A stretch of 64,000 nt of DNA from Ochromonas danica (Eukaryota > Sar > Chrysophyceae > Chromulinales > Chromulinaceae). The position numbers were made by a program, and so were the translations under genes. This document shows, piece by piece, positions 21,358 to 59,842 of the stretch (position 1 is its first letter; every line of letters begins with the position of its first letter). The notes beneath the pieces were generated by a model. That model did not search any database, was not told the DNA's origin, and was given only the letters and a program-made list of their open reading frames with translations. The stretch covers positions 24,653 to 88,652 of the forward strand of contig VKHL01000120.1 in assembly GCA_015146655.1 (NCBI GenBank), given 5' to 3'.

Positions 21358-23016
21358 TTACATGTGGATGGTCTTGACGGGCTTCATGAGCAGCGTCTCC
21401 CCAATGTCTCGGGCGATGGACATCGTGGCCTCAGGATGAGAAAGTTCTTTCGCGCGGAAGCTCATCTGCGTCAGCTTGTCTTCGTTCTGGAATAAAGACG
21501 ACACAGTGTCTGCGATCTTGCGAGGCTTCATGCCTGTGTAGACACCGAAGCCACCCTTGACTACATAGGGCACATTGCCATACTCCTGTGCATCACCAAA
21601 CAAAGACATCAGAATGAGTTATCAATCAATCAAGCATGCTACTGTTTCAGCACTCACCTGTCCTGGGAGATAAGAAGAGAGAATGAGAGGCAGGCCGCGG
21701 ATCATTGACTCGGCGATAGTGCCTGGTCCCGCCTTTGTGATGAGACAGTCACTGGCTGCCATGAACTCGTCGATGTTGTTGACAAATCCCTTGACCACCA
21801 CCTTGAGTTTGTCTTGTTGAGATCCCAGCTTGAGTTTGAGCGAGTCCGCCGTCTTCTTGTTATGTCCGCAGATGACGATCAGCTGTGCTGGCACATTCAA
21901 TTTACGCAATCTGCTCGCCAATGTCGAGGCAATGGAGCCCAAGCCTCCCACGCCATCTCCTCCACCCATTAGAAGCACCGTCTTGCCTGATTCATCAATT
22001 CCCAATGACTTTCGAATCTGAACCTTGGGCTTGGACTCCTTCCAGAAGGACGGGCGAATGGGCAGACCTTTGAGGATGATCTTCTGCTCGTCCACGCCGT
22101 TCTTCAAGGCCAAGTTGCGCACTGCATCAGATGGCACATAATAGGCATCTGCACGATTATCAAACCATGTGTTATGCGCACCACCTAAATCAGTGACGAT
22201 GGTGACGAAAGGGATCTTTGCCTTCTCCTTCACAGTTCGTTCTCGATTGATCTCTTCAATGATCGTGATCGGCATCAACTGGCAGAGTGGATGGACGGAC
22301 ACCACGAAGTCAGGATTAGCCGCACGAATAGCCTTAGCAAAGGGCTTGTAGCATGTGCGCCAACTCCACAATTCCGTGATGCGTCGAGTGAGTGGGAAGG
22401 TGCCGTAGGCATAGAATCCTCGCCACAGCATGGGGTGCTTGGCTAGGAAGCGGTAGGTCGGCACGAAGCGATTGAATGGCCAAGGCGCGTGATCTGTCCA
22501 GATGTCCATGATCTCCACGTCGATCTTGCCAGGGAACTGATCCTGTAGTGCTTGGTCCAGAGCCTGTGCTGAGGCGCGATGGCCTCCTCCCGTGTCACTC
22601 ATCAAGATGAGAATCTTTCGCTTATGATTGGACCCTCCTTTGAAGAAAGGTAAGCGAGAGAGGAGGCGACGACTGTGCTTAGAGGACCTGAAATCGACTT
22701 CCTTGACGGTCTTGAGAGAAGAGGATGACCTCAGCGGACTGACAGACGATCCCGCACGACTCAACGAGGAGGAGGAAGTCTTCACAAAGGTGCCCACGAA
22801 GGAGTCGATCCCATTGGAGACTGTCTCAGCGAAGGATCGCTTGTAGGAGGAGCGGGAGGAGGAGGCGGAGGAGGAGGTCTCTCCCCGATAGACAAGAGGC
22901 GCGAGATCATTCGCCCAGCAGGACGACAAGAGGAGACAGAGGAAGAGACTGAAGAGAGTGGGGACGAAGAAGAGCTTCATGCTACTTGTATAGCTAGACA
23001 GGATTTTTCTGAGCAA
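21358..23016 (-). CDS. MGD1: Monogalactosyldiacylglycerol synthase, plastid
   Basis: Exons 21658-23016 and 21358-21585 give 528 residues (a second ATG lies 13 codons in). The GT28-type N-terminal domain starts ILILMSDTGGGHRASAQAL, which binds diacylglycerol; further signatures are TDLGGAHNTWF, SDAVRNLAL, and the UDP-galactose site ITKAGPGTIAESMIRGLPLILS, then LPGQEYGNVPYVV across the splice. The enzyme makes the main galactolipid of plastid membranes from UDP-galactose and diacylglycerol. The N-terminus has a strong hydrophobic segment (KLFFVPTLFSLFLCLLLSSC) followed by about 80 Ser/Arg-rich residues, as expected for an ER signal plus transit peptide of a complex plastid. Confidence 0.92.
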
Positions 23017-29083: not shown

Positions 29084-30045
29084 CTACGGTTGCTTTGAAG
29101 AGAGTTCCTTGGCAAGACTGAGACGCCTGCCATACATTTCAATGCGATAAATACGTTGATCATTATCCAGCCTCAGAATCATCCATCCATCCATATAAAC
29201 TTGGTGAGTTTCCACAAATCCAGTGAGGCGTCGTGTTTGCACATCTGTTTCGCCAAGGAATGCCTGCAATTGATCTGCTGCTTTGAGAGCTTCGAGAGTG
29301 AAGAAGGGGAGCTGATAGGTAGATCCTTTCATAGGAAGTTCAACCAAATGCTCTTTTAGGATAGTGCCACGGAATGAAACCTTCGATATGATCGCACTAC
29401 CTGGCGCATTGAGCTTATGCTGAATCCACGACTTCTCCAAGCAACCCACAATATCCGGGATGGAGCCAATGCGTTTGGCCAAGACATCAATGACACTGGG
29501 TAGTCCTCGAATGGTGAGGGGTTTGACCTCACGAGGAGCTTGACTGAGAAAGCTGTCATCGACGTTGTCAATCATAGAGCAGCTGCCCATGCAGAAGTCC
29601 TGGAAGAATTGTCGGTAGAGCGACATGTCGGCTGAGTTGAGCACATTGAAGTACATCGTAGCCAGTTTTCGCCTAAGATCGCTCTTTAAGATGCGAGGAA
29701 AGGGGTGTTCATTGTTGCGATGTCTCTTGCGTCGCTTCTTGAGAGGCCGAAGGTTGACATCTGCTCCCACAGGTTCGTTGACAAACACTTCAAACAAAGG
29801 CGGAGAGGAAGAGATGGAGGAAGTGGAACACAATGATAAAGTGGAAGTAGAGGAGAGGAGCTGCTGCTCTCTTTCTCCCTGCCACAAATCGTTTTCGTGG
29901 ATTTCTTCTTCCAAGGGCCAGTCATCTGACAGACAAGACAGTTCAGGTCATCATAATTCCTGAAGTACACAAAGAAAAGATGGTGCTTACCTAAAGAGAA
30001 ATCATTTAGCAGCAATTCATCGGCGAAATCCAGAGCCATCATCAT
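29084..30045 (-). CDS. Cluster gene 1: acidic-basic-NTF2-like family protein
   Basis: Exons 29991-30045 and 29084-29925 give 298 residues. The short first exon encodes an acidic/hydrophobic start (MMMALDFADELLLNDFSL) and splices in phase 1 onto DDWPLEEE, the layout shared by most members. Then come a Ser-rich part, VNEPVGADVNL, a basic run (KKRRKRHRNN), and the motif PFPRILKSDLRRKL. The C-terminal ~200 residues fit an NTF2/SnoaL fold: YFNVLNSADMSLYRQFF, IGSIPDIV, VSFRGTI, and a final MILRLDNDQRIYRIEMYG. Function is unknown; the basic run suggests nuclear import or nucleic-acid binding. It is head to head with cluster gene 2, with 172 bases between the starts. Confidence 0.78.
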
Positions 30046-30217
30046 ACCATGTTATGTCATAACTTTAACTAACAGCATTGATTTAACATTTCACCATCGG
30101 ACATGTGGCAAGATGGTTGGTGGACGACTTATAGAACTCTAAGTTTTGGATTTATTAGTCACAATAAGCGACTGGGAGAACATCTGGGAGAATTTTGTTT
30201 CGTTTTGTTGTTTGAGA

Positions 30218-31282
30218 ATGAGCGACATGTTGGTCTCCGAAGAACCTGCTCATGATCAGCTCGTACTTGATAACTTTATTGAAGATTTCTCCTCAGGTGA
30301 GCACCTCTTCCACCACTTCCGAATGCTCTCGCAGCGGGGCTGCTGGTGACTCATACCATCTGTCTGACTGTTGCTGATCGTAATGACACGATTCTTCGCA
30401 GATGAGTGGTATATAGGTGCTATGGGCGAGACCAGCTTGTGGGATAGTGTGCAGGGGCAGTCCTCGCTAGGCAACTCCTCCCTCTCCCTCTCCCTCACCT
30501 GCTCCTCGACCTCCCTCTCCTCTTCATCATTATCGTCCTCGCCGCCCTCCGTTGAGCTCTTTGTGGATGAGCCTGTGGGTTCAGATGTCAATCTGCGGCT
30601 TACGAAGAAGCGGCGCAAGAGATATCGTCGCAATGAAAACCCATTTCCTCGCATCTTGAAGAGAGACTTGAGGCGACTGTTGCACGGCATGTACTTCAAT
30701 GTGGTCAACTCAGGCGACATGACTCTTTATCGACAGTTACTTCGTGACATCTGTGCGGATAGCTGCTGTTTAGTGGACAATCTCGATGACCGGTGCATGT
30801 CTCCTGGACTGCAAACTGTCAAGCCAATCAAAATTCGAAACCTAACGAATGTGGCAGATATTCTATCCAAGCGATTGGGTTCTCTGCCTGACCTTGTGGG
30901 TCACTTGGAGAAGTCTTTTATTCGACACCAGCTAAATACTCCTGGTTGTCTATTGATGGCGAAGACTCGCTTCCAAGGCACTTTTCCGAACAATAAATTA
31001 CTTCGACTAACCCTCGAAAATGGTGAGCAGCGTTACTTGCCCTACTTCATGGTGGATGCTTTGAATATATCTGGTCGATTCGATGCGTTTGTTGGCGGTG
31101 GGGATGTGAGAATCGAAGCTTTGGACGATATGACGTTTTGGCACATTGTGGAAATAGATGCGTGGATGATCTTCCACTTGGACAATGATAATCGCATTTA
31201 TCGCATTGAATTTCACGGGCAAATTTCCAGTCGCTGTGAGATGCTCTCTGATCTAGAAAGTAGGTCGTGTGTCCGAAGGTAG
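30218..31282 (+). CDS. Cluster gene 2 (A): acidic-basic-NTF2-like family protein
   Basis: Exons 30218-30296 and 30402-31282 give 319 residues. Exon 1 (MSDMLVSEEPAH, then LDNFIEDFSS) splices in phase 1 onto DEWYIGAM. A Ser/Leu-rich stretch, VDEPVGSDVNL, KKRRKRYRRN and PFPRILKRDLRRLL follow, then the NTF2-like region (YFNVVNSGDMTLYRQLL, LGSLPDLV, TRFQGTF, WMIFHLDNDNRIYRIEFHG). This is the only full-length copy of gene A: its 3' part, from base 30800 on, is copied twice more downstream as fragments lacking the acidic and basic parts. Confidence 0.78.
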
Positions 31283-31330
31283 CCTGCTGAGAAATGGTGT
31301 GTTTTGTTCATTATCGATCATTATATGTTC

Positions 31331-31374
31331 ATTATCGATAATTTGCTCCTCTTGGACTTTCTTGGTTATAAATA
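31331..31374 (+). promoter_or_regulatory. Candidate promoter of B1: ATTATCGATAAT palindrome and TATA-like box
   Basis: A perfect 12-base palindrome at 31331-31342 follows a partial copy (ATTATCGAT) at 31310-31318. TATAAATA lies at 31367-31374, about 140 bases before the B1 ATG. The block recurs at 33430-33473 and 35529-35572. Promoter function is an inference. Confidence 0.4.
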
Positions 31375-31515
31375 GATGTGCCTCGACGAGAGCGGCTGAG
31401 TGATGTGTATGTTTGGTATTGGATAATTATAAAAAGAAATGTAACAGTTCTCGTGGAGTTGTGTTTGTTCATTGAAAGCGCAGCTCAAACCCTCAAAATC
31501 AGAGTTGAAAATCGT

Positions 31516-32611
31516 ATGTTTCCCTCCAATTTCACTTCATTTACAACAACGAAAGGAATGACAAGTTCTGGAGACTACTCCTTTGACCTGACCAGCTTTG
31601 ATAGTGCCGCAAGGTCAGAAGACTTTCTTGATGATCTGCTGGAAGATTTCTCATCAGGTGAGCGCCTGGATTGTATTAATAGAGTAAAATCGATGTGATG
31701 GTTGTGATGGGTGATGAACGTGTCCTTTGTTGTGTGATCACATTGACAATGTGATTAATTGATGCTGTGGTTGCTAATCACTACTCTCCACTATGTGATC
31801 AGATGAATGGCCACTGATGCTAACTGAGGAGGATAAGGTGTGTGGGGAGGGCATGCAGCTGACCCCACAGAGAAACTTCTCCCTTTTTACTTCTTCACCA
31901 CCTACCCTCATTACCTTGATGATGGATCAGCCACAAGCTTCAGACGTCAACCTTCAACCCATAAAGAAGCGCCGCAAGCGCAATCGCCCCACTGCTCGCC
32001 CTTTTCCTCGCATCTTGAAGAGCGATCTGCGCCGCAAACTGCCTCTGATGTACATCAATGCTGTAAACTCTGGTGACATTGGGCTGCTAGAGAGCTTTTT
32101 CCGTGCGTTCTGTGTGGGTAGCTGTAGTTTGGTGGACAATCTGGACGACACTTCTATCTGTCAAGCGCTGAGAGAAGTCAAACCTCTCACTGTGCGGGGA
32201 CTGAACAAAGTAGCGGATGTTCTGACGAAGCGCATTGGTTCTGTCCCTGACATTGTTGCTCATATCGAGAAGTCTTGGATTCAGCATCGTCTGAATGCTC
32301 CAGGCAGTGTGGTTATCTCCAAGGTTCTCATCAAAGGCACACTTCTCGATAACCATTTGGTGGAGATACCTGTGAGTGGTTTCCCCAGCTATCGGTTGCC
32401 TTTCTTTATTTTGGAGTCTCTAAAGGCTGCAGGGCAATTAGAGGCTCTCACTCATGGTGCAATGGTACAGAGTCCTGGCAGTGTAGGTGTCTCTGTGAGC
32501 TGTCATCGACTGGAAATCAACGGTTGGGTCGCCTTTTACTTAGATAATGACAATCACATATATCGATTGGAAATAAATGGTCTATTATCCTTTCAGAGGG
32601 GTACACTCTAA
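31516..32611 (+). CDS. Cluster gene 3 (B1): acidic-basic-NTF2-like family protein
   Basis: Exons 31516-31657 and 31803-32611 give 316 residues. Exon 1 ends in an acidic stretch (SEDFLDDLLEDFSS) and splices in phase 1 onto DEWPLMLTEED. Then come DQPQASDVNL, the basic KKRRKRNR, PFPRILKSDLRRKL, and the NTF2-like region with YINAVNSGDIGLLESFF, IGSVPDIV, VLIKGTL and WVAFYLDNDNHIYRLEING. The frame stays open upstream without an ATG, so 31516 is the first real start. The protein is identical to B2 and differs from B3 only near the exon 2 start. Confidence 0.78.
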
Positions 32612-32667
32612 ATGCTGAGGCTCGCGGCCATCAATAAACTGGTGACCTCTATAAGAGGCAAAGTCTG

Positions 32668-32898
32668 TCATGAACAACTGTCGGGATGGATTCGCATGTC
32701 TCCTCGCATCTCGATGCGATATATATGATTGTTACTATCCAAGGAGAAGATGATCGTGGCCTCGATCTCTACCTTGGAACAGTTCCCTTCTATCCACGAC
32801 GAGTCGGGCTGGATATATTGTGAGGCAGTGATTTGAGGTGGCAAATAGCCAGACAACCTCAAAGCATCGAAGACAAAGCCAGGTACTGCAAAGCTAGG
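32668..32898 (-). pseudogene. Truncated copy of gene C (fragment C1')
   Basis: This keeps only the last ~75 codons of gene C (FVFDALRLSGYLPPQ to the same stop). The upstream part is replaced at about 32880-32898 by a short filler and then by antisense gene A sequence. It lacks the acidic start, the basic motif and most of the fold, so it is very unlikely to make a working family protein. Confidence 0.82.
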
Positions 32899-33381
32899 TC
32901 TCCTGGACTGCAAACTGTCAAGCCAATCAAAATTCGAAACCTAACGAATGTGGCAGATATTCTATCCAAGCGATTGGGTTCTCTGCCTGACCTTGTGGGT
33001 CACTTGGAGAAGTCTTTTATTCGACACCAGCTAAATACTCCTGGTTGTCTATTGATGGCGAAGACTCGCTTCCAAGGCACTTTTCCGAACAATAAATTAC
33101 TTCGACTAACCCTCGAAAATGGTGAGCAGCGTTACTTGCCCTACTTCATGGTGGATGCTTTGAATATATCTGGTCGATTCGATGCGTTTGTTGGCGGTGG
33201 GGATGTGAGAATCGAAGCTTTGGACGATATGACGTTTTGGCACATTGTGGAAATAGATGCGTGGATGATCTTCCACTTGGACAATGATAATCGCATTTAT
33301 CGCATTGAATTTCACGGGCAAATTTCCAGTCGCTGTGAGATGCTCTCTGATCTAGAAAGTAGGTCGTGTGTCCGAAGGTAG
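32899..33381 (+). pseudogene. 5'-truncated copy of gene A (fragment A2')
   Basis: Identical where compared to the 3' part of gene A (30800-31282), with the same stop. It lacks exon 1, the acidic part, the basic stretch and the PFPRILK motif. The open frame extends back into antisense gene C sequence from 32833 but has no ATG there; the first ATG is deep inside the fold. It is probably not a functional protein unless transcribed from an unseen promoter. Confidence 0.82.
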
Positions 33382-33614
33382 CCTGCTGAGAAATGGTGTG
33401 TTTTGTTCATTATCGATCATTATATGTTCATTATCGATAATTTGCTCCTCTTGGACTTTCTTGGTTATAAATAGATGTGCCTCGACGAGAGCGGCTGAGT
33501 GATGTGTATGTTTGGTATTGGATAATTATAAAAAGAAATGTAACAGTTCTCGTGGAGTTGTGTTTGTTCATTGAAAGCGCAGCTCAAACCCTCAAAATCA
33601 GAGTTGAAAATCGT

Positions 33615-34710
33615 ATGTTTCCCTCCAATTTCACTTCATTTACAACAACGAAAGGAATGACAAGTTCTGGAGACTACTCCTTTGACCTGACCAGCTTTGA
33701 TAGTGCCGCAAGGTCAGAAGACTTTCTTGATGATCTGCTGGAAGATTTCTCATCAGGTGAGCGCCTGGATTGTATTAATAGAGTAAAATCGATGTGATGG
33801 TTGTGATGGGTGATGAACGTGTCCTTTGTTGTGTGATCACATTGACAATGTGATTAATTGATGCTGTGGTTGCTAATCACTACTCTCCACTATGTGATCA
33901 GATGAATGGCCACTGATGCTAACTGAGGAGGATAAGGTGTGTGGGGAGGGCATGCAGCTGACCCCACAGAGAAACTTCTCCCTTTTTACTTCTTCACCAC
34001 CTACCCTCATTACCTTGATGATGGATCAGCCACAAGCTTCAGACGTCAACCTTCAACCCATAAAGAAGCGCCGCAAGCGCAATCGCCCCACTGCTCGCCC
34101 TTTTCCTCGCATCTTGAAGAGCGATCTGCGCCGCAAACTGCCTCTGATGTACATCAATGCTGTAAACTCTGGTGACATTGGGCTGCTAGAGAGCTTTTTC
34201 CGTGCGTTCTGTGTGGGTAGCTGTAGTTTGGTGGACAATCTGGACGACACTTCTATCTGTCAAGCGCTGAGAGAAGTCAAACCTCTCACTGTGCGGGGAC
34301 TGAACAAAGTAGCGGATGTTCTGACGAAGCGCATTGGTTCTGTCCCTGACATTGTTGCTCATATCGAGAAGTCTTGGATTCAGCATCGTCTGAATGCTCC
34401 AGGCAGTGTGGTTATCTCCAAGGTTCTCATCAAAGGCACACTTCTCGATAACCATTTGGTGGAGATACCTGTGAGTGGTTTCCCCAGCTATCGGTTGCCT
34501 TTCTTTATTTTGGAGTCTCTAAAGGCTGCAGGGCAATTAGAGGCTCTCACTCATGGTGCAATGGTACAGAGTCCTGGCAGTGTAGGTGTCTCTGTGAGCT
34601 GTCATCGACTGGAAATCAACGGTTGGGTCGCCTTTTACTTAGATAATGACAATCACATATATCGATTGGAAATAAATGGTCTATTATCCTTTCAGAGGGG
34701 TACACTCTAA
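33615..34710 (+). CDS. Cluster gene 4 (B2), identical copy of B1
   Basis: Exons 33615-33756 and 33902-34710 give the same 316 residues as B1, shifted by exactly 2,099 bases. The intron and upstream palindrome/TATA block are also the same. Lack of silent differences means the duplication is very recent, kept uniform by conversion, or an assembly artefact. Confidence 0.75.
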
Positions 34711-34766
34711 ATGCTGAGGCTCGCGGCCATCAATAAACTGGTGACCTCTATAAGAGGCAAAGTCTG

Positions 34767-34997
34767 TCATGAACAACTGTCGGGATGGATTCGCATGTCT
34801 CCTCGCATCTCGATGCGATATATATGATTGTTACTATCCAAGGAGAAGATGATCGTGGCCTCGATCTCTACCTTGGAACAGTTCCCTTCTATCCACGACG
34901 AGTCGGGCTGGATATATTGTGAGGCAGTGATTTGAGGTGGCAAATAGCCAGACAACCTCAAAGCATCGAAGACAAAGCCAGGTACTGCAAAGCTAGG
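34767..34997 (-). pseudogene. Truncated copy of gene C (fragment C2')
   Basis: Same content and same breakpoint as C1', 2,099 bases downstream. It keeps only the end of the NTF2-like region. Confidence 0.82.
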
Positions 34998-35480
34998 TCT
35001 CCTGGACTGCAAACTGTCAAGCCAATCAAAATTCGAAACCTAACGAATGTGGCAGATATTCTATCCAAGCGATTGGGTTCTCTGCCTGACCTTGTGGGTC
35101 ACTTGGAGAAGTCTTTTATTCGACACCAGCTAAATACTCCTGGTTGTCTATTGATGGCGAAGACTCGCTTCCAAGGCACTTTTCCGAACAATAAATTACT
35201 TCGACTAACCCTCGAAAATGGTGAGCAGCGTTACTTGCCCTACTTCATGGTGGATGCTTTGAATATATCTGGTCGATTCGATGCGTTTGTTGGCGGTGGG
35301 GATGTGAGAATCGAAGCTTTGGACGATATGACGTTTTGGCACATTGTGGAAATAGATGCGTGGATGATCTTCCACTTGGACAATGATAATCGCATTTATC
35401 GCATTGAATTTCACGGGCAAATTTCCAGTCGCTGTGAGATGCTCTCTGATCTAGAAAGTAGGTCGTGTGTCCGAAGGTAG
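34998..35480 (+). pseudogene. 5'-truncated copy of gene A (fragment A3')
   Basis: Same as A2', shifted by 2,099 bases. It lacks the start, acidic, basic and PFPRILK parts and ends at the same stop as gene A. Confidence 0.82.
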
Positions 35481-35713
35481 CCTGCTGAGAAATGGTGTGT
35501 TTTGTTCATTATCGATCATTATATGTTCATTATCGATAATTTGCTCCTCTTGGACTTTCTTGGTTATAAATAGATGTGCCTCGACGAGAGCGGCTGAGTG
35601 ATGTGTATGTTTGGTATTGGATAATTATAAAAAGAAATGTAACAGTTCTCGTGGAGTTGTGTTTGTTCATTGAAAGCGCAGCTCAAACCCTCAAAATCAG
35701 AGTTGAAAATCGT

Positions 35714-36783
35714 ATGTTTCCCTCCAATTTCACTTCATTTACAACAACGAAAGGAATGACAAGTTCTGGAGACTACTCCTTTGACCTGACCAGCTTTGAT
35801 AGTGCCGCAAGGTCAGAAGACTTTCTTGATGATCTGCTGGAAGATTTCTCTTCAGGTGAGCGCCTGGATTGTATTAATAGAGTAAAATCGATGTGATGGT
35901 TGTAATGGTGATGAACGTGTCCTTTGGTGGTGGTGGTGACAATGTGATTAATTGACTGCTCTCCACCATGTGATCAGATGAATGGCCACTGATGCTAACT
36001 GAGGAGGACAAGGTGTGTGGGGAGGGCATGCAGCTGACCCCGCAGAGAAACTTCTCCCTCACTTCTTCACCACCTACCCTCATTACCTTGATTGCGAATC
36101 AGCCACAGGCTTCCGATGTCAACCTCCAACCCATAAAGAAGCGCCGCAAGCGCAATCGCCCCACTGCTCGCCCTTTTCCTCGCATCTTGAAGAGCGATCT
36201 GCGCCGCAAACTGCCTCTGATGTACATCAATGCTGTAAACTCTGGTGACATTGGGCTGCTAGAGAGCTTTTTCCGTGCGTTCTGTGTGGGTAGCTGTAGT
36301 TTGGTGGACAATCTGGACGACACTTCTATCTGTCAAGCGCTGAGAGAAGTCAAACCTCTCACTGTGCGGGGACTGAACAAAGTAGCGGATGTTCTGACGA
36401 AGCGCATTGGTTCTGTCCCTGACATTGTTGCTCATATCGAGAAGTCTTGGATTCAGCATCGTCTGAATGCTCCAGGCAGTGTGGTTATCTCCAAGGTTCT
36501 CATCAAAGGCACACTTCTCGATAACCATTTGGTGGAGATACCTGTGAGTGGTTTCCCCAGCTATCGGTTGCCTTTCTTTATTTTGGAGTCTCTAAAGGCT
36601 GCAGGGCAATTAGAGGCTCTCACTCATGGTGCAATGGTACAGAGTCCTGGCAGTGTAGGTGTCTCTGTGAGCTGTCATCGACTGGAAATCAACGGTTGGG
36701 TCGCCTTTTACTTAGATAATGACAATCACATATATCGATTGGAAATAAATGGTCTATTATCCTTTCAGAGGGGTACACTCTAA
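35714..36783 (+). CDS. Cluster gene 5 (B3), diverged at the exon 1/2 region
   Basis: Exons 35714-35855 and 35978-36783 give 315 residues. It equals B1/B2 except for a 276-base patch covering the exon 1 end, the intron and the exon 2 start: the intron is 23 bases shorter, one codon is lost (FSLTSS for FSLFTSS), and LMMDQ is changed to LIANQ. The basic motif and NTF2-like region are the same. It converges on gene C with 56 bases between stops. Confidence 0.78.
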
Positions 36784-36839
36784 ATGCTGAGGCTCGCGGC
36801 CATCAATAAACTGGTGACCTCTATAAGAGGCAAAGTCTG

Positions 36840-37830
36840 TCATGAACAACTGTCGGGATGGATTCGCATGTCTCCTCGCATCTCGATGCGATATATATGA
36901 TTGTTACTATCCAAGGAGAAGATGATCGTGGCCTCGATCTCTACCTTGGAACAGTTCCCTTCTATCCACGACGAGTCGGGCTGGATATATTGTGAGGCAG
37001 TGATTTGAGGTGGCAAATAGCCAGACAACCTCAAAGCATCGAAGACAAAGCTAGGTACCACATGAGAGGCTCTTTCTGTGTCCAGAAAGTGGACAAATTC
37101 CTTGCTCAGCAAACTGCAGGCTATCTTCGCTTTCATGGCCACTTGACTCCCAGGAACCCGCAGCCGCTGGAGAATGCTGGCATGATTCAAGGTCAAGGCA
37201 AAGTCAGGAGAGGACCCAATGCGACTTGTGAGTAAATGAATTGTATCTCTTAGTCCTGTGATTACCCATGGCTTGCTGCTCTCTTTCCATTGGCCACAGA
37301 AATAGGAGTCTTGGATGTAGTCAACAACTTTCACACTGCCCAGGCAGAAGTCGTTCAGGAAGGACGCAATCAATGCCTTTTCCCCAGAGTTGACCACGTT
37401 AGCGTACATCGTAGGCAGACCGCGTCGCAAATCTCTCTTGAGGATACGAGGGAAGGGACTGACAGGTGGTCTTCGCCTCCGTCGCGGTTTGTAAGGGAGC
37501 AAGACGACGTCATCGCCCAGGGATGTGTCTTCAACGGCCAAAGCAGGAGACATTCCAGCTAAGGGAGAAGGGAGAAGTTCTGCGCTTCTCGCAAGCATGT
37601 GCCTCTGTCTCTTCTGGCTGGAAACAATGAAGTGAAGGGAGAAGTGACTGCAAGGAGAGTGGGTCTAACCTGGCCTCTTCTATGTCTTCTTCTATGCCAA
37701 GAAAGCATGCCTGTTCGCTTGACTCGCAGGGCCAAGTGCAAGAGTCAGAGGAAAGCGGTGGAGTGTCCAAGGAGTCCAATGCTTCACAAACCTCCATGGT
37801 GGTCGTTGCCAATGGAGTGTATCGATCCAT
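36840..37830 (-). CDS. Cluster gene 6 (C): acidic-basic-NTF2-like family protein
   Basis: Exons 37670-37830 and 36840-37617 give 312 residues with a 52-base intron (GTTAGA to TTTCCAG). Unlike its relatives the splice is phase 2 and the acidic part (LGIEEDIEEAS) precedes QKRQRH. The basic stretch is shorter and Arg-rich (KPRRRRRPP), followed by PFPRILKRDLRRGL. The NTF2-like region reads YANVVNSGEKALIASFL, IGSSPDFA, and ends IIFSLDSNNHIYRIEMRG. This is the intact parent of fragments C1' and C2'. The first intron is less certain than in other members. Confidence 0.7.
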
Positions 37831-38191
37831 CAGAGAAGTTTAAATTGATTTCTATTTGAGTGAAATGACTGCATCCTACCAGGCCCGGGAAGTGGAAGGT
37901 TGATCAAGGTCTCATTCTTCTGCTCTGCACGGAGTGGTGGCATCGCTTGTCAAGTTGCTGTAGTACACCTTGCGCGGGGATACACCGAAGAACAACACTT
38001 CCACGCATGACAGTAATAGTTGCACATGTTCTGTGTGGCTTGCTGTGTGCGTGTGCATCTTGCCGTTGGCGTTGGCGGGCTGGACATCTTGAGAATCTTA
38101 GCACTTGCACTGGCAATCATCTAATTCTTCCAGAATCTTCTTGACGTCTGCTGTCATAATTTAATTCCTTGCTTCTCTCTTCACAACAACC
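37831..38191. other. Intergenic region between divergent gene C and the GST gene
   Basis: Presumed promoters of both genes. No coding potential, RNA gene or clear TATA box is seen. Confidence 0.45.
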
Positions 38192-38812
38192 ATGCCTAAG
38201 CTTTATTACACACCAACCTCTTGCGGCGCTGCCTCTTTCATCTCTGCTTACGTCGCTGGCGTTCGCCTGGATACTGAAGAAGTCGATCTTGCTACTCACA
38301 AGACTGCCTCTGGTGCTGACTTCTATGCCATCAACCCTAAGGGTAATGTGCCTGCGATTGTCTTGGACAATGGCGTGGTGTTGAACGAGAACGCCGCCAC
38401 CTTGCTCTTCATCGCTGACCAAGCTCCTGGCAAGGTCGCTCCTGTGGCGGGCACCACTGAGCGCTATGAGCTCATTGTGGCCTTGAGCTACATCGCCTCT
38501 GAGTATCACGCCACTATTGGTGGTTTGTTCTATCCTGGCAGCGAGGAGGTGAAGAACTACCTGCGCGAGAAGCTGGCCAAGAAGTTGACCTACATCAACG
38601 ACTCCCTGCTGGGCACCAAGTCTTTCCTGGTGGGCAACAAGTTCTCTGTGGCTGATGCCTATCTCTCTGTCGCCCTCAGCTGGGCTGGTTACGTTGGCGT
38701 CAGCTTGGAGCCTTACCCTCATGTTCAGGCTTACTTGGAGCGTGTGGGTAACATCGAGGCTGTGAAGGCTGCTAAGGAGCGCATTGCCACCAAGCCTTCC
38801 ACTACCATTTAA
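38192..38812 (+). CDS. Beta-class-like glutathione S-transferase
   Basis: An intronless frame of 206 residues, the normal length. The N-terminal thioredoxin-like domain has LYYTPTSCGAASF, with a Cys near position 11 like the catalytic/glutathione-binding Cys of bacterial beta-class GSTs, then NPKGNVPAIVLDNG and LNENAATLLFIAD. The helical domain has EYHATIGGLFYP, FLVGNKFSVADAYLSVALSWA and LEPYPHVQAYLERV. It conjugates glutathione to electrophiles or reduces peroxides/disulfides. Strong similarity to bacterial GstA and absence of introns suggest transfer from bacteria. Codon use is strongly biased (GCT, GTC, AAG), suggesting high expression. Confidence 0.87.
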   Translation: MPKLYYTPTSCGAASFISAYVAGVRLDTEEVDLATHKTASGADFYAINPKGNVPAIVLDNGVVLNENAATLLFIADQAPGKVAPVAGTTERYELIVALSYIASEYHATIGGLFYPGSEEVKNYLREKLAKKLTYINDSLLGTKSFLVGNKFSVADAYLSVALSWAGYVGVSLEPYPHVQAYLERVGNIEAVKAAKERIATKPSTTI

Positions 38813-39015
38813 GTTTTAGAGCTAGATGTGTAAATACTCCAAGTTGTTAACTTGGTTTGTAAGCTCTTTAGTTTGATTTAAACGAGTCATAAATCTTCTT
38901 TCCTTGTCCATCATCATATCTACACAACCCAAGGGTTGACAAGTTAAAATATTCTCCACCGCACCACAATAATAGTTCTCACAGCGGAGAAGGATCCCCC
39001 GGGATTATTCAAGAA

Positions 39016-39900
39016 ATGGACAGAGGATTAACTTCTATTTCCAGAGACTCTTGTTTCTTGATAACAAACACAAACACTTCGAGTGTTCCTCTAACTGGGA
39101 GCATGGAGGAGAACTCTTGTGCTCCCTCTTCTTCCTCCTCCCAGCCAGTCGACCTGTCCAGCCGCCGCAGTGGACAAGTGCATCTTCTGTCCTGGTCCGA
39201 CCACTTCACACGACGCGATCTCGTGCGGAAGGGAAGCGATGACGTCAACTTGCAACTACCTCGCAAGCGGCAGAAGGTTCACCGGCTGGTCAGTCCCTTC
39301 CCTCGCATCCTCAAGAGAGACATGCGCCGCCTGCTGCCCCTCATGCTCGTCAACGTCGTCAACAGCAACGACATCTCCCTCTTCCACCGCCTCTTATCAG
39401 ACCTCTGTGTGAGCAGATGTCGCTGTGTGGACAATGTGGAAGAAGTTTTCTTCGGCGCGGCCATCCAGCATCTCCGACCTTTCGTCATCGACGGCTTGGC
39501 CAACATCGTCGAGGCCTTTGGCTTGAAGATCGTCAGCATTCCTGATTTGATCGTTCGTCTAGTAGACTCGTTCACTCAGCACCGACTCAACACAGCTGGA
39601 AGCAAGGTCTTCATGCAGTTGAGCTTGTCGGGCACGATTGGCAGCCAAGCACTAGTGCGCTGCTATAAAAACCAACACTGTGATGCCAGCTGGCTGCTGC
39701 CAGGCTTCCTGGTAGAGTCTTTGCGTCTCTCGGGACACACTTTCCACTCTCAAGTGGCAGGAGATGAGACCTTGTCATCGACCTATTCGATGAACAACTG
39801 CTCGTGGTGGATCGTCTTGCATTTGGACAATAATCATCGGGTTTATCAGATGAGTATCGATGGGAAAGTGTCTATTCAGCCTAATGTAGAGTCTGTCTGA
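39016..39900 (+). CDS. Cluster gene 7 (D): intronless NTF2-like family protein
   Basis: A single frame of 294 residues starting MDRGLTSISRD. It keeps DDVNL, a basic stretch (PRKRQKVHR) and PFPRILKRDMRRLL, then the NTF2-like region (VNVVNSNDISLFHRLL, IVSIPDLIV, LSLSGTI, WWIVLHLDNNHRVYQMSIDG). The clear acidic first exon is missing, so it may have been lost or may lie upstream beyond an intron I cannot place. It is the most diverged member and lies beyond the GST gene. Confidence 0.72.
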   Translation: MDRGLTSISRDSCFLITNTNTSSVPLTGSMEENSCAPSSSSSQPVDLSSRRSGQVHLLSWSDHFTRRDLVRKGSDDVNLQLPRKRQKVHRLVSPFPRILKRDMRRLLPLMLVNVVNSNDISLFHRLLSDLCVSRCRCVDNVEEVFFGAAIQHLRPFVIDGLANIVEAFGLKIVSIPDLIVRLVDSFTQHRLNTAGSKVFMQLSLSGTIGSQALVRCYKNQHCDASWLLPGFLVESLRLSGHTFHSQVAGDETLSSTYSMNNCSWWIVLHLDNNHRVYQMSIDGKVSIQPNVESV

Positions 39901-54791: not shown

Positions 54792-56528
54792 CTAGGCTTC
54801 TTTGCGCAATAGAGGGAAGGCCAGGACGTCTCGAATAGCCGGCGAGTTAGTGAGAAGCATGACCAAACGATCAATTCCTATGCCCAAGCCTGCTGTGGGA
54901 GGCATGCCTGTCTCCAGGGCCAGGAGGAAGTCCTCGTCCACTCCGCATGCCTCCTCATCACCACGAGCCTTCTTGTCAGCCTGGCGCTCAAAGCGCTGTC
55001 GTTGATCAACTGGATCCGTCAACTCAGAAAAGGCATTCGCATGCTCTCGTCCAACAATGAAGAGCTCAAATCGCTCCGTGAGTCCCTCTTTCGAACGATG
55101 GGGTTTGGCCAAAGGAGAAATATCAATGGGATGCTCAGTGATGAAGGTTGGTTGTTGAAGAGTTCTCTCACAAATCTCTTCAAAAACAACATTGAGAATT
55201 TCACCAGCAGTCTCCTTCTCCTGCACAAGAGCTTCAGGGAGACCACACTCTTTGACAGCTGCAGATCTCGCTCCCACCACATCGCGGCTTTTGATAAAAG
55301 GATAGAAGTCCACTTCAGTGGCCTCTTTGACAATATCTATCATGGAAATGCGTCTCCAAGGAGGAGAGAGATTGACAGTCTGGTTCTGGTAGGGAATGAC
55401 CAAACCTCCGGCCACCTCCTGGGCAATCGAACAAACAACCTTCTCTGTTAAAGCCATCATGTCGTTGTAGTCTGCATATGCCTGGTAGAGCTCCACAGTA
55501 GTAAACTCTGGATTGTGACGAGTAGACAGTCCTTCATTGCGGAAGATTCGTCCCACCTCGTAAACTCGATCAAAGCCACCCACCACCAGACGCTTCAAAT
55601 GCAGTTCTGTTGCAATGCGCAATGTAAGCGGCATATCAAGAGTGTTGTGGAAAGTGAGGAAAGGCTTGGCCTCAGCACCACCCGGCTGAACGTGGAGGAT
55701 TGGCGTCTCGATCTCCAAGAAGCCTTCGCTGTCCAACAACTGGCGCAATCGAGAGATAATCAATGCACGCTGACGCAAAGTCTGACGTACTTCAGGGTGA
55801 ACTATCATATCTAAATGTCTCTGTCTGTAGCGCTTATTGACATCAGTCAATCCATGGAACTTGTCTGGCAAGGGATGGAGGGACTTGGTGAGCATGGACC
55901 ATCGGGTAACATAGACCGACAGCTCGCCTTTCTCAGTGCGTTTCATCGTCCCCTCCACACCAATAATATCTCCAGCATCTGTCATCTCTTTAATAGAGTC
56001 AAAGGCATCCCCTAGGCGACTTTTCTCGAGGTACAGTTGGATGGTTCCGCTCTCATCTTGCAATTCGAAAAATGCCAACTTGCCGAAGACACGACGAATC
56101 ATAATTCTCCCGGCTATAGAAACTACAGCATTACTATCCTCAACACCATTCTCTAAATGCAGGTATTGCTTCTGTAGCGCACGTGTCTGATGGGTGACGG
56201 GGTAGGTGTAGGCGAATGGCGTCATGCCCTGCGAGCGCAGCGCATCGACCTTTCCCACACGAACTTGACGAATTTCTTCTATCGTCTGCTTGGGTTCTTC
56301 CGTGGCTTTCTTCTTCCCTCCTTTAGCTGGTTGGGTAGACATGGCCAAAAGGGTGCTGGACCGCCACTGAGGCGTCGAGGCGCTGCGGCTGCCACTGCGA
56401 AATGGCAATCGCCTGCACAGCTGGCGGCTATGTTGGATGCAATATTGGAAGCCCTTGGTTGATGTAAACATGACCAAGATAATGGTTAGCAATAAGATGC
56501 AATATTTGGATGGGAAATGAGGATGCAT
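54792..56528 (-). CDS. LysRS: Lysyl-tRNA synthetase, class II, plastid-targeted
   Basis: One frame of 578 residues. The N-terminal OB fold has [20 protein letters not shown]. Class II motif 1 is [10 protein letters not shown], motif 2 is [22 protein letters not shown], and motif 3 is [16 protein letters not shown], with FPLLR at the end; the lysine-specific pattern PGGAEAKPF is present. It charges tRNA-Lys. The leader has ER-signal character ([18 protein letters not shown]) then Arg/Ser-rich sequence. An internal Met ([16 protein letters not shown]) precedes a Lys-rich start, so a second cytosolic form by alternative initiation is possible. Confidence 0.92.
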
Positions 56529-56997: not shown

Positions 56998-59842
56998 ATG
57001 ATGATGACAAGTGCCAGTACAATTCCTTCTTCTGACACAAGAATACACTTCACATCCATGATAATAGTCTTTCTTATCTTGTCTCTCTCTTCCTTGGCCT
57101 TCTCTTGGAGAACTGTCACCCTCCATCGGGCAAAGAGGTCATCGCATCCCTTTCCCTTTTCGGTGCATGACCTTGGCTCTCTACCTTCAACCAGAGGGAC
57201 GATACTTCAGTAAGTAGACTCTCCCTTGCTCTTGTGCTTCGCACTGAGCCTTTCTCTTTCTCCTCTTTTAGATCGGACAATGGCCGAGCAAGCGACCACG
57301 TCGATGGCTACCCTCCGCAGAGGAACAAGAGAGTGGAGAATGTCGACCTGTTCGCTGCAGGCGATCGAGCAGTCATCGATTTGGCGACCAAGCCTCTGGA
57401 GACAAAGTCTACTTCTCCGACGATTGCTACTCACTCTCCTTCCGTCTTGACTGCTCCTTCTCCTGCTGCCGTGGCTGTACCTACTGCTGCTTCTAGCATG
57501 GACACCAGAATTGATGATCTCCTTCGCAATGCCTCAGCGGCAATGGGACCTGCTCTAAGATCGAACACACATGAGCTCCATCAAGCAGAAGTAATGAGGC
57601 TGGAAGCCGAGCGAGAGATGCTGTTGCTTGACCAGCAGCGCCTGATTGAGCGAAAAGTGAGAATTATCTCGTCATTTTCTGTATTATCATTGTCATTGTT
57701 ACAGCTAAGCCTCACCTTGCTGTCACTGCTCAGAGACATCTGGCTAGTCTGGACAAACTTGTGCTCCAGCTATGGGAGGGTCATCTCACTCCTGCCCAAT
57801 TGCTTTCACAGCATAAGGACAGCGTGCAGAAAGATTTGCTCTTGCGTCTCGTGGAGCTTGCCAATGCTTCTCCACATGAAGCAGATCGCCAAAGACTGTT
57901 AGGCTTCTATGATGCGCTGCTGGATGGTCTCTTGAAAGTCGACGACGTGCAGCATGCGGCCGTGTTGGCTGCCATTCAGATGGAAGTTCGACAAGCACTC
58001 TCTCCTCCAGCTGTCTCTTCATCCACCAATGCTGCTACCACACCAACCGATGAATACAGTCGTGTGCTTGAAGGATGGCTTAAGCAGGTAGGCAACGCAA
58101 CGTCGGAATGGAGTGAAGGAGGTGAGAATGCGACAGCCTTTGAGACCTTCTCCTCCCTTCCTACAACACGCACTGTACGCTTTCCTTCTTCATTGCCGCT
58201 CTCTATGGTCCCTTTGCTATTGCAAGGAGAAGACTTTTCAAGTCAAGATTTGCAGTTTATTCGAAATGATCTGGTGGAAGGACTCTTCCATAAAGGAGCA
58301 GACTCATCATCATCGTCTTCTTCTTCTTCTTCATCTTCTTCTTCTGGGAATACCTTGGAAGTGCAGGAATCTGCTTATATCGTGACGATTCGCGGACTGC
58401 CTCGCCGCCTACCCCTTGCCTCTTCTGCTACCACTGCCTCGGTAGAGGAGCAAGAGGAAGCTGTTCGAGAAGTTTTCCAAGAAATGCAACGTCGACTCAA
58501 TCGCATGCCTGGGATTGGTCAACGAGCCCGTCTCTTCCTCTTACCCGATTACGATGGACCGCTGCCACCTTTCCTGCTCCCTTCCCCCTTGACTGGTGGC
58601 AAAGATATCAATGACAACATAGAAAACGATATCGGCACAAAGGGATACAATGAGATGCTCGCAGCCTATGAGAAGGAAAAGAACAAAAGCAAAGCAATGA
58701 AAGAGAAATACTCCGGCAGACCCTTCGACCCCATCTTCGTCTTGTTATCTAACGAGGCCTTGCCGCGCAACAATAACTGGGTTACGGGTATCACAGCAGT
58801 GGGCAGTTTGGTCGCTACTGTGATCAGTATCTTGCTGTTTGCCACCGATGTCAACTCTCTCAACCTATCATTCTTACAGCAGGTGGTTGCTGGACAAGAC
58901 AGTGTGCTCGTCACACGCTTGACGTACATTTTATTGGCTTGTATGGGGTTACAAGGAGTGCACGATGGAGCTCATTACCTCACTGCAAAGCTGCGCGGTG
59001 TTCGTCTCTCTTTTCCTTCCTTTCTCTTGCCTTCGTTACAGTTAGGTATCTTTGGTTCGATCACTCCACTCGCAAGCTATCCGAAAGATCGCCGGGCGCT
59101 CTTCGACGTGGCAATTGCTGGTCCCATGGCGGGCTTCCTTGTTTCGCTGGCACTGACCGGTTTAGGAGTCTATCTCACCGGTCACGCCTCGGTAGAAGAG
59201 GCTGCAACTTTTCCCGCCCTTCCCGTGCCCTTTGTGGATACTTCCTTCCTCTTACATAGTCTGGTCGAGGGACTACCCACTGTCACTCCCCCTTCGCTTC
59301 CTCCTCTTCCCACTGCAACGGATTCTACCGTAGCTGCTGCTAATGCCCTAGCTAGTACGGCGCGAGTACTTCCAGTTCATCCGCTATTTGTGGCGGGCGC
59401 TGTGGGGTTATTTAGCAGTGCATTGAACAGTTTACCTATCGGTCGGCTGGACGGTGGCAGAGTGTCTTCCGCCATTGCGGGGCGTAGGGCAGCTAGCTCA
59501 ATCTCTGTTGCTTTCTTGTTCTTGCAGGCAGCATCCTTCTTCACATCAAGCAACCCTATCACATTGTTTTGGGCAATTACAGTTATCTTATTACAGCGCG
59601 CAGTAGATCTACCGCCTGAAGATGATGTCACACCATTGGTCACCGCACGAGAAGAAAGTGCTGCTGGCAAGACTGCAGGCTATTGGGTTCGCATGGTGAG
59701 TATTCTATTCTGCTCTTTGATGACCTTGGCCGTGCTTTGGCCTGCGCCCACCTCCATGCTCAGTGCCAGCCTTCCCTCTCCTGAGGTTGTGCAAGGAAGC
59801 CTGCAATCTCTGTTTTCCAACCCCACCCCTCCTTCGCTCTAG
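56998..59842 (+). CDS. EGY-like site-2-type membrane protease, plastid
   Basis: Exons 56998-57209, 57272-57656 and 57734-59842 give 901 residues. The leader has a hydrophobic core (MIIVFLILSLSSLAFSW) ending with LAF-S, like secondary-plastid signal cleavage sites. The C-terminal 320 residues contain several membrane segments. The metal-binding motif reads GVHDGAHYL where plant EGY1/EGY2 have HExxH; then LGIFGSITPL, DVAIAGPMAGF, and SLPIGRLDGGR with the second Asp ligand. The N-terminal half has a coiled coil and a poly-Ser run (58302-58348). Because Glu is replaced by Asp, activity may be altered. It belongs in thylakoid or inner envelope membranes. Confidence 0.83.

Follow-up and report, generated by a model that had tools for sequence, protein, structure and literature searches.

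A clustered, still-duplicating chrysophyte gene family that joins a basic arm to a predicted C-terminal NTF2-like domain in Ochromonas danica

A cluster of seven related open frames lies in a 64,000-nucleotide stretch of the Ochromonas danica genome (contig VKHL01000120.1, positions 24,653 to 88,652; the whole of this stretch is here called the window). These genes belong to a large, clustered and still-duplicating chrysophyte family in whose proteins an N-terminal tail is followed by a strongly basic arm and, at the C-terminus, by a predicted NTF2-like domain. In the window genes for which an exon model was built, the tail is predicted to be acidic and rich in bulky hydrophobic residues. The favoured explanation, which we rate as about evenly balanced, is that tail, arm and domain make up a nuclear, lineage-specific class of transcription regulators. 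The fold is already known; neither a Pfam entry nor a published description could be found for the architecture, the signature or an expansion on this scale.

Open frames carrying the family signature are located at 29084-29914 (-; gene A), 30371-31282 (+; gene B), 31817-32611 (+; gene C1), 33916-34710 (+; gene C2), 35992-36783 (+; gene C3), 36840-37598 (-; gene E) and 39016-39900 (+; gene F). The preliminary description of this cluster counted seven intact genes. Seven open frames are present, but they hold only five clearly distinct sequences, C1 and C2 being identical and C3 a near-copy. The motifs PFPRILK-[SR]-D-[LM]-RR, SxPD and, in the last strand, D-[NS]-[ND]-x-x-[IV]-Y-[RQ], all of which it had listed, occur in every one of the seven, and the first is followed in each by about 190 conserved residues. 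Two more of its motifs hold for six genes, the exception being gene E, which reads VVL for VNL and CS for the strand GT. Four truncated pieces, a predicted 5' exon in at least five genes and the genome-wide extent of the family had been missed. The features of the cluster are as follows (^ marks a predicted exon junction).

29084..29925 (-): gene A exon 2, with basic arm (KKRRKRHR), PFPRILKSDLRR and NTF2-like domain (sequence and exon model)
29991..30045 (-): gene A predicted exon 1, acidic-hydrophobic, ...DELLLNDFSL^DDWPL (donor GTAAGC, acceptor TGTCAG, frame kept; exon model)
30218..30296 (+): gene B predicted exon 1, ...FIEDFSS^DEWYI (exon model)
30402..31282 (+): gene B exon 2, with basic arm, PFPRILKRDLRR and NTF2-like domain (sequence and exon model)
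31516..31657 (+): gene C1 predicted exon 1, ...DDLLEDFSS^DEWPL (exon model)
31803..32611 (+): gene C1 exon 2; AlphaFold2 was run on its open frame, which starts at 31817 (sequence, structure and exon model)
32695..32907 (-; C120:57347-57559 on the contig): 3' fragment of gene E, a truncated remnant of the tandem duplication (genome search)
32833..33381 (+): open frame with a truncated 3' piece of gene B, basic arm and start lost, from tandem duplication (open frames, duplication comparison)
33615..33756 (+): gene C2 predicted exon 1, protein as in C1 (exon model)
33902..34710 (+): gene C2 exon 2, encoding the same protein as C1 (sequence, duplication comparison and exon model)
34794..35006 (-; C120:59446-59658 on the contig): second truncated piece of gene E (genome search)
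34932..35480 (+): second open frame with a truncated piece of gene B (open frames, duplication comparison)
35714..35855 (+): gene C3 predicted exon 1 (exon model)
35978..36783 (+): gene C3 exon 2, protein 99% identical to C1 (sequence and exon model)
36840..37598 (-): gene E, diverged member, with VVL for VNL and CS for GT (sequence)
39016..39900 (+): gene F, PFPRILKRDMRR member (sequence)
30799..35850 (no strand): tandem duplication with a 2099-base unit; the sequence of 30799-33751 recurs without a difference when shifted onward by one unit

Family-wide, the entry to the NTF2-like domain is marked by the signature P-R-I-L-K-x-D-[ILV]-R-R. Two residues of KxDxRR, D70 and R72, show no exception in the 87-88 rows aligned at these columns, nor does N84; all three are also invariant in a 58-row alignment, and D243 is invariant over the 66 rows that reach its column. 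N81, D145, M78 and T175 are nearly invariant in the first of these alignments (87-88 rows at the core). Strongly conserved columns outside KxDxRR, among them N84, D145, T175 and D243, presumably correspond to helix caps and turns of the fold. A basic arm, taken as at least five Lys or Arg per eight residues within 35 residues before the core, is present in 59 of 71 members (L080, one of 72, was dropped for lack of a core-pattern match). In a control of 5000 stretches drawn at random from 83 frames outside the family, which are stop-to-stop frames and not all genes, 3.7% reach the same density. Simple patterns resembling nuclear localisation signals match 52 of the 71 (pattern match only). The ratio of nonsynonymous to synonymous substitution rates (dN/dS) is below one: 0.22-0.51 in 33 of 36 similar pairs (dS of at least 0.1) and 0.33-0.82 in the other three (dS below 0.1). 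These are point estimates from Nei-Gojobori counts without a significance test, for pairs picked by shared 4-residue words.

The arm and domain could instead make nuclear or cytoplasmic RNA-binding adaptors, in which the domain would serve as in NXF1/NXT1 or G3BP, examples of NTF2-like domains in RNA adaptors, and the arm would bind RNA instead of DNA. This is unlikely: no RNA-recognition domain is found among the Pfam matches of the members scanned, and well over a hundred partly clustered copies would be unusual for export or stress-granule adaptors.

The fold proposed in the preliminary description, NTF2-like, is borne out. It had named AlphaFold as a check, and the AlphaFold2 model of C1 confidently predicts a cone-shaped alpha+beta fold, with helices followed by a strongly curved antiparallel sheet; structure matches agree, and the same fold is predicted for the distant relative P0006. 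In a Foldseek search with C1, the top eight rows include five chains of four LDB1/LDB2 entries (E-values 1.1e-5 to 2.0e-5), and nine chains of six such entries are among the best 50 rows. No LDB chain is found among the best 50 VIA-align rows for either C1 or P0006, and one fold fills both lists. Likewise, no LDB family is among the Pfam matches of 58 members and no LDB chain appears in a profile search of PDB sequences at E-values up to 10; two matches in that search (E-values 1.1 and 6.5) were taken as chance. The preliminary description knew no named family with this architecture, and no Pfam entry was found for it in the members scanned; no profile of a named NTF2-like family, such as SnoaL_2, matched them over the curated cut-off. 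Weak Pfam matches vary from member to member, and the "Antimicrobial25" (E-value 0.17) and "NAM-associated" (P0006; E-value 0.0084) rows were dismissed as chance.

Ketosteroid isomerases, epoxide hydrolases and SnoaL-like proteins account for many of the top-ranking structure matches. The family might thus consist of SnoaL/ketosteroid-isomerase-like enzymes or small-molecule sensors, with a ligand in the cone and the arm directing them to the nucleus, perhaps as ligand-gated regulators. SnoaL_2 matches in two scanned proteins point the same way, though both are weak and below the cut-off (one of 58 members, E-value 0.041; P0010, E-value 0.012 and 16.6 bits versus a cut-off of 27). A weak argument against is that the few near-invariant polar residues sit, by our reading, at the signature, helix caps and turns. 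This alternative is considered rather improbable.

The acidic tail of the favoured regulator class comes from an exon model for genes A, B and C1-C3, in which splice signals were picked by eye on genomic sequence alone. In all five genes a GTRAGC donor paired with a CAG acceptor would splice on an upstream exon without breaking the frame; position and phase of the join are shared by all five, and the junctions read LLNDFSL^DDWPL, FIEDFSS^DEWYI or LLEDFSS^DEWPL. The five predicted exons have a net charge of -4 to -7. Gene E may have an acidic exon 1 upstream, near 37670-37800, with one donor candidate at 37669. The protein P0003, one of 13 third-party proteins (its source name is Ochromonas danica), has LLFESLPSDEEWNL at the place that matches the exon junction in the window. 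Tail charges were measured in 12 of these 13, P0011 being dropped as it has no core match. The net charge of the first 60 residues is -16 in P0003, -15 in P0004 and -6 in P0005. An automated finder, too loose to use, gave lower-scoring exon-1 junctions for L005 and L010 that also read DEWPL. Acidic stretches interspersed with bulky hydrophobic residues resemble acidic activation domains.

The proposed model for the regulator class is as follows. The basic arm would act as a nuclear localisation signal and bring the protein into the nucleus, where it would contact DNA or chromatin. The NTF2-like domain would dimerise or dock partners, as in LDB1/Chip, and the acidic tail would recruit the transcription machinery and so activate transcription.

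Several observations weigh against this model. An acidic tail is not a feature of all members. Among the 12 proteins measured, P0003, P0004 and P0005 alone are clearly negative; values for the remaining nine run from -3 to +6, with P0006 at only -1, P0008 and P0013 at -3, and P0001 (whose N-terminus appears incomplete), P0002, P0007, P0009, P0010 and P0012 not negative. The automated exon-1 finder, run over 72 members, gave high scores to genes A and C1 and to no others. Confidence in the model is low at the basic arm (predicted local distance difference test score of 65 for residues 51-60), and in the P0006 group its net charge is only +1 to +4. No known DNA-binding domain was matched by any member scanned against Pfam. 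The LDB superpositions are loose, with a root-mean-square deviation (rmsd) of 5.3-7.2 A and a template modelling score by target of 0.42-0.58 (Foldseek), and VIA-align, ranked by Z score, puts enzymes and designed binders first for C1. Proteins with NTF2-like folds differ widely in what they do. For LDB itself, the functional meaning of its likeness to NTF2 and to enzymes is described as unclear and the dimer modes of the fold as variable (PMC6800368).

The extent of the family was estimated by searching an assembly of 31.19 Mb in 337 contigs. C1 gave 131 matches, the distant relative P0006 gave 82 and the diverged member L047 gave 110. Merging on one strand within 300 bases yields 148 places on 67 contigs, an estimate in which fragments are counted and two truncated pieces of the window are fused with neighbouring genes. 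Of these places, 65 are single and 83 fall into 26 groups, in which adjacent places are separated by less than 6 kb. Matches to P0006 only are short (about 130-150 bases) and their membership is unproven. Similarity among members is far beyond chance. In the fetched DNA, a nine-sequence profile (A1) matched 93 of 501 distinct open frames of at least 100 amino acids at an E-value below 1e-4 in the first round, a figure that includes the window genes and some pieces of single genes from overlapping loci. Twelve matches of the first query (E-values 8.9e-5 to 0.0055) fall in 11 stretches (L064-L074), each of which has a profile match; stretches L075 and L076 cover the places of L026 and L028.

Four classical transcription-factor families were searched for comparison. 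There are 13 genome matches to bZIP_1 (five over the cut-off), 10 HSF exon matches, 10 C2H2 finger matches (six over the cut-off) and at least 45-52 Myb groups by distance, the last a lower bound because 150 of 205 candidate repeats were scored. Set against these counts, 148 places is a size typical of regulator families, and the family outnumbers each of the four in this mixotrophic alga. A bolder statement, possible but doubtful, is that the most numerous regulator family of O. danica is an undescribed DNA-binding class, in which a basic arm is fixed to an NTF2-like domain that supplies the dimer, the role of the zipper in bZIPs, and which radiated in chrysophytes as bZIPs did in oomycetes. 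Should the family prove to regulate transcription, a census of chrysophyte regulators built on known domains would overlook a major class. The window offers compact, intact genes that are open to testing. Myb repeats themselves form dense local arrays on contigs C23, C76, C182 and C227, with equal-score pairs on C23 and C76, which suggests another recently duplicating regulator-like family.

Within the window, the C1 and C2 frames lie inside a 2953-base stretch that is perfectly identical when shifted by 2099 bases; the unit with C3 is 97.8% identical over 2088 columns. At the duplication junction the 3' part of gene E is fused to the 3' part of gene B, leaving two truncated pieces of each. 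Because identity is perfect over 2953 bases, this is either a very recent duplication (by unequal exchange) or an assembly duplicate. Such copies and pieces, together with stops in 4 of the 131 C1 matches and in some L047 matches, might mean that the genes are products of genome turnover with little function for the organism, whether locally duplicated fragments or a family derived from a mobile element. This is very improbable. Open frames of 200-400 amino acids contain 122 of the 131 matches (seven are in shorter and two in longer frames), dN/dS does not exceed 0.51 in any of the 33 pairs whose dS is at least 0.1, near-orthologues are found in other data sets (P0001, P0002, P0004 and P0008) and no relative was confirmed in viral contigs searched with alignment A1.

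In a tree, next to no distance separates P0003 from L008, and P0005 coincides with L074 (both proteins are source-named Ochromonas danica). P0001, P0002, P0004 and P0008 each stand beside single O. danica members; therefore, their subfamilies are probably older than the split from their source strains or species. P0006, P0009, P0010, P0012 and P0013 (sources ENA, NCBI and JGI) form a clade of their own. Most of its proteins are extended at the N-terminus, a KRPRGRPRKK stretch in P0006 resembles an AT-hook, and a YPSA[KT]S segment is common to P0006, P0009, P0012 and P0013. P0009 and P0010, for each of which the longest contig has 8924 bases, possibly come from one contig and would then be a neighbouring pair. 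In the protein database, a single-protein search gave two matches among 696 candidates, and profile searches gave at least six (of 7980 candidates) and seven (of 6100). These searches depend on shared 5-residue words and recovered only a few O. danica copies, so confinement to chrysophytes cannot be shown. With alignment A1 only, 17 pattern stretches in viral contigs and 14 in bacterial and archaeal genomes gave no confirmed relative, records near the window's own genome possibly being excluded from both. In literature mostly outside subscription journals, PFPRILK was not found in any paper, and no paper was found that names a stramenopile bZIP together with an NTF2-like fold, or LDB1 together with an "NTF2-like" dimerization domain; titles and abstract openings among the papers listed likewise gave no account of the architecture, signature or expansion.

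Among the neighbouring genes, a glutathione S-transferase gene (38192-38812, +; GST_C and GST_N Pfam matches) lies within the cluster and separates gene E from gene F. Elsewhere in the window, a plastid-bearing host is indicated by a monogalactosyldiacylglycerol synthase (21622-23016, -), an M50 peptidase (57761-59842, +) and a class II (D, K, N) tRNA synthetase (54792-56528, -), whose leader resembles, by eye, a plastid targeting signal.

The family can be compared with several known systems. SnoaL-like cyclases, ketosteroid isomerase and MonBI/SalBIII are enzymes without a basic arm or acidic tail, and the family has only weak sequence matches to this group (SnoaL_2). Nuclear transport factor 2 (NTF2) is a single protein, small and conserved, rather than a large basic-armed family, and the two share 12% identity.

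The expanded bZIPs of oomycetes offer a parallel, being a stramenopile expansion of basic regulators (PMC4046829). The basic run directly before the domain, and the unusual character of these expanded bZIPs (PMC4046829), would suit descent of the family from bZIP factors of stramenopiles, with the zipper lost and a C-terminal domain retained. Some oomycete bZIPs may have a similar layout. Oomycete bZIPs have a bZIP domain of their own, whereas none was found in the family. The preliminary description had seen no leucine zipper, and this stands: no bZIP family is among the Pfam matches of 58 members, and the C1 model has no long helix, so that the basic N-x7-R/K plus heptad leucine zipper pattern was found in neither. 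The 13 bZIP loci hold no open frame of at least 100 amino acids that matches the family profile (frames of both strands were compared, and introns might hide one). In plus-strand frames of nine of the 13, read by eye, one locus (L035:973-2175) shows a bZIP followed by LOV/PAS-like sequence, aureochrome-like as expected in an ochrophyte. A survey of Phytophthora sojae bZIPs found no extra predicted domain save one PAS (PMC4046829). Such a descent is thus improbable.

LDB1/LDB2 (Chip) resemble the family in placing an NTF2-like fold in a nuclear regulator, and 6tyd, 9bpo, 9ozv and 8hib are among the top Foldseek matches. They differ in that superposition is loose (rmsd 5.3-7.2 A) and no sequence match was found; LDB is not known to have a basic PFPRILK-like arm. 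LDB also reaches DNA through partners and has its dimerisation domain at the N-terminus, whereas the NTF2-like domain of the family is C-terminal; the LDB self-association domain dimerises and serves enhancer-promoter contacts (PMC6800368). As a working model for the family, LDB1/Chip comes nearest.

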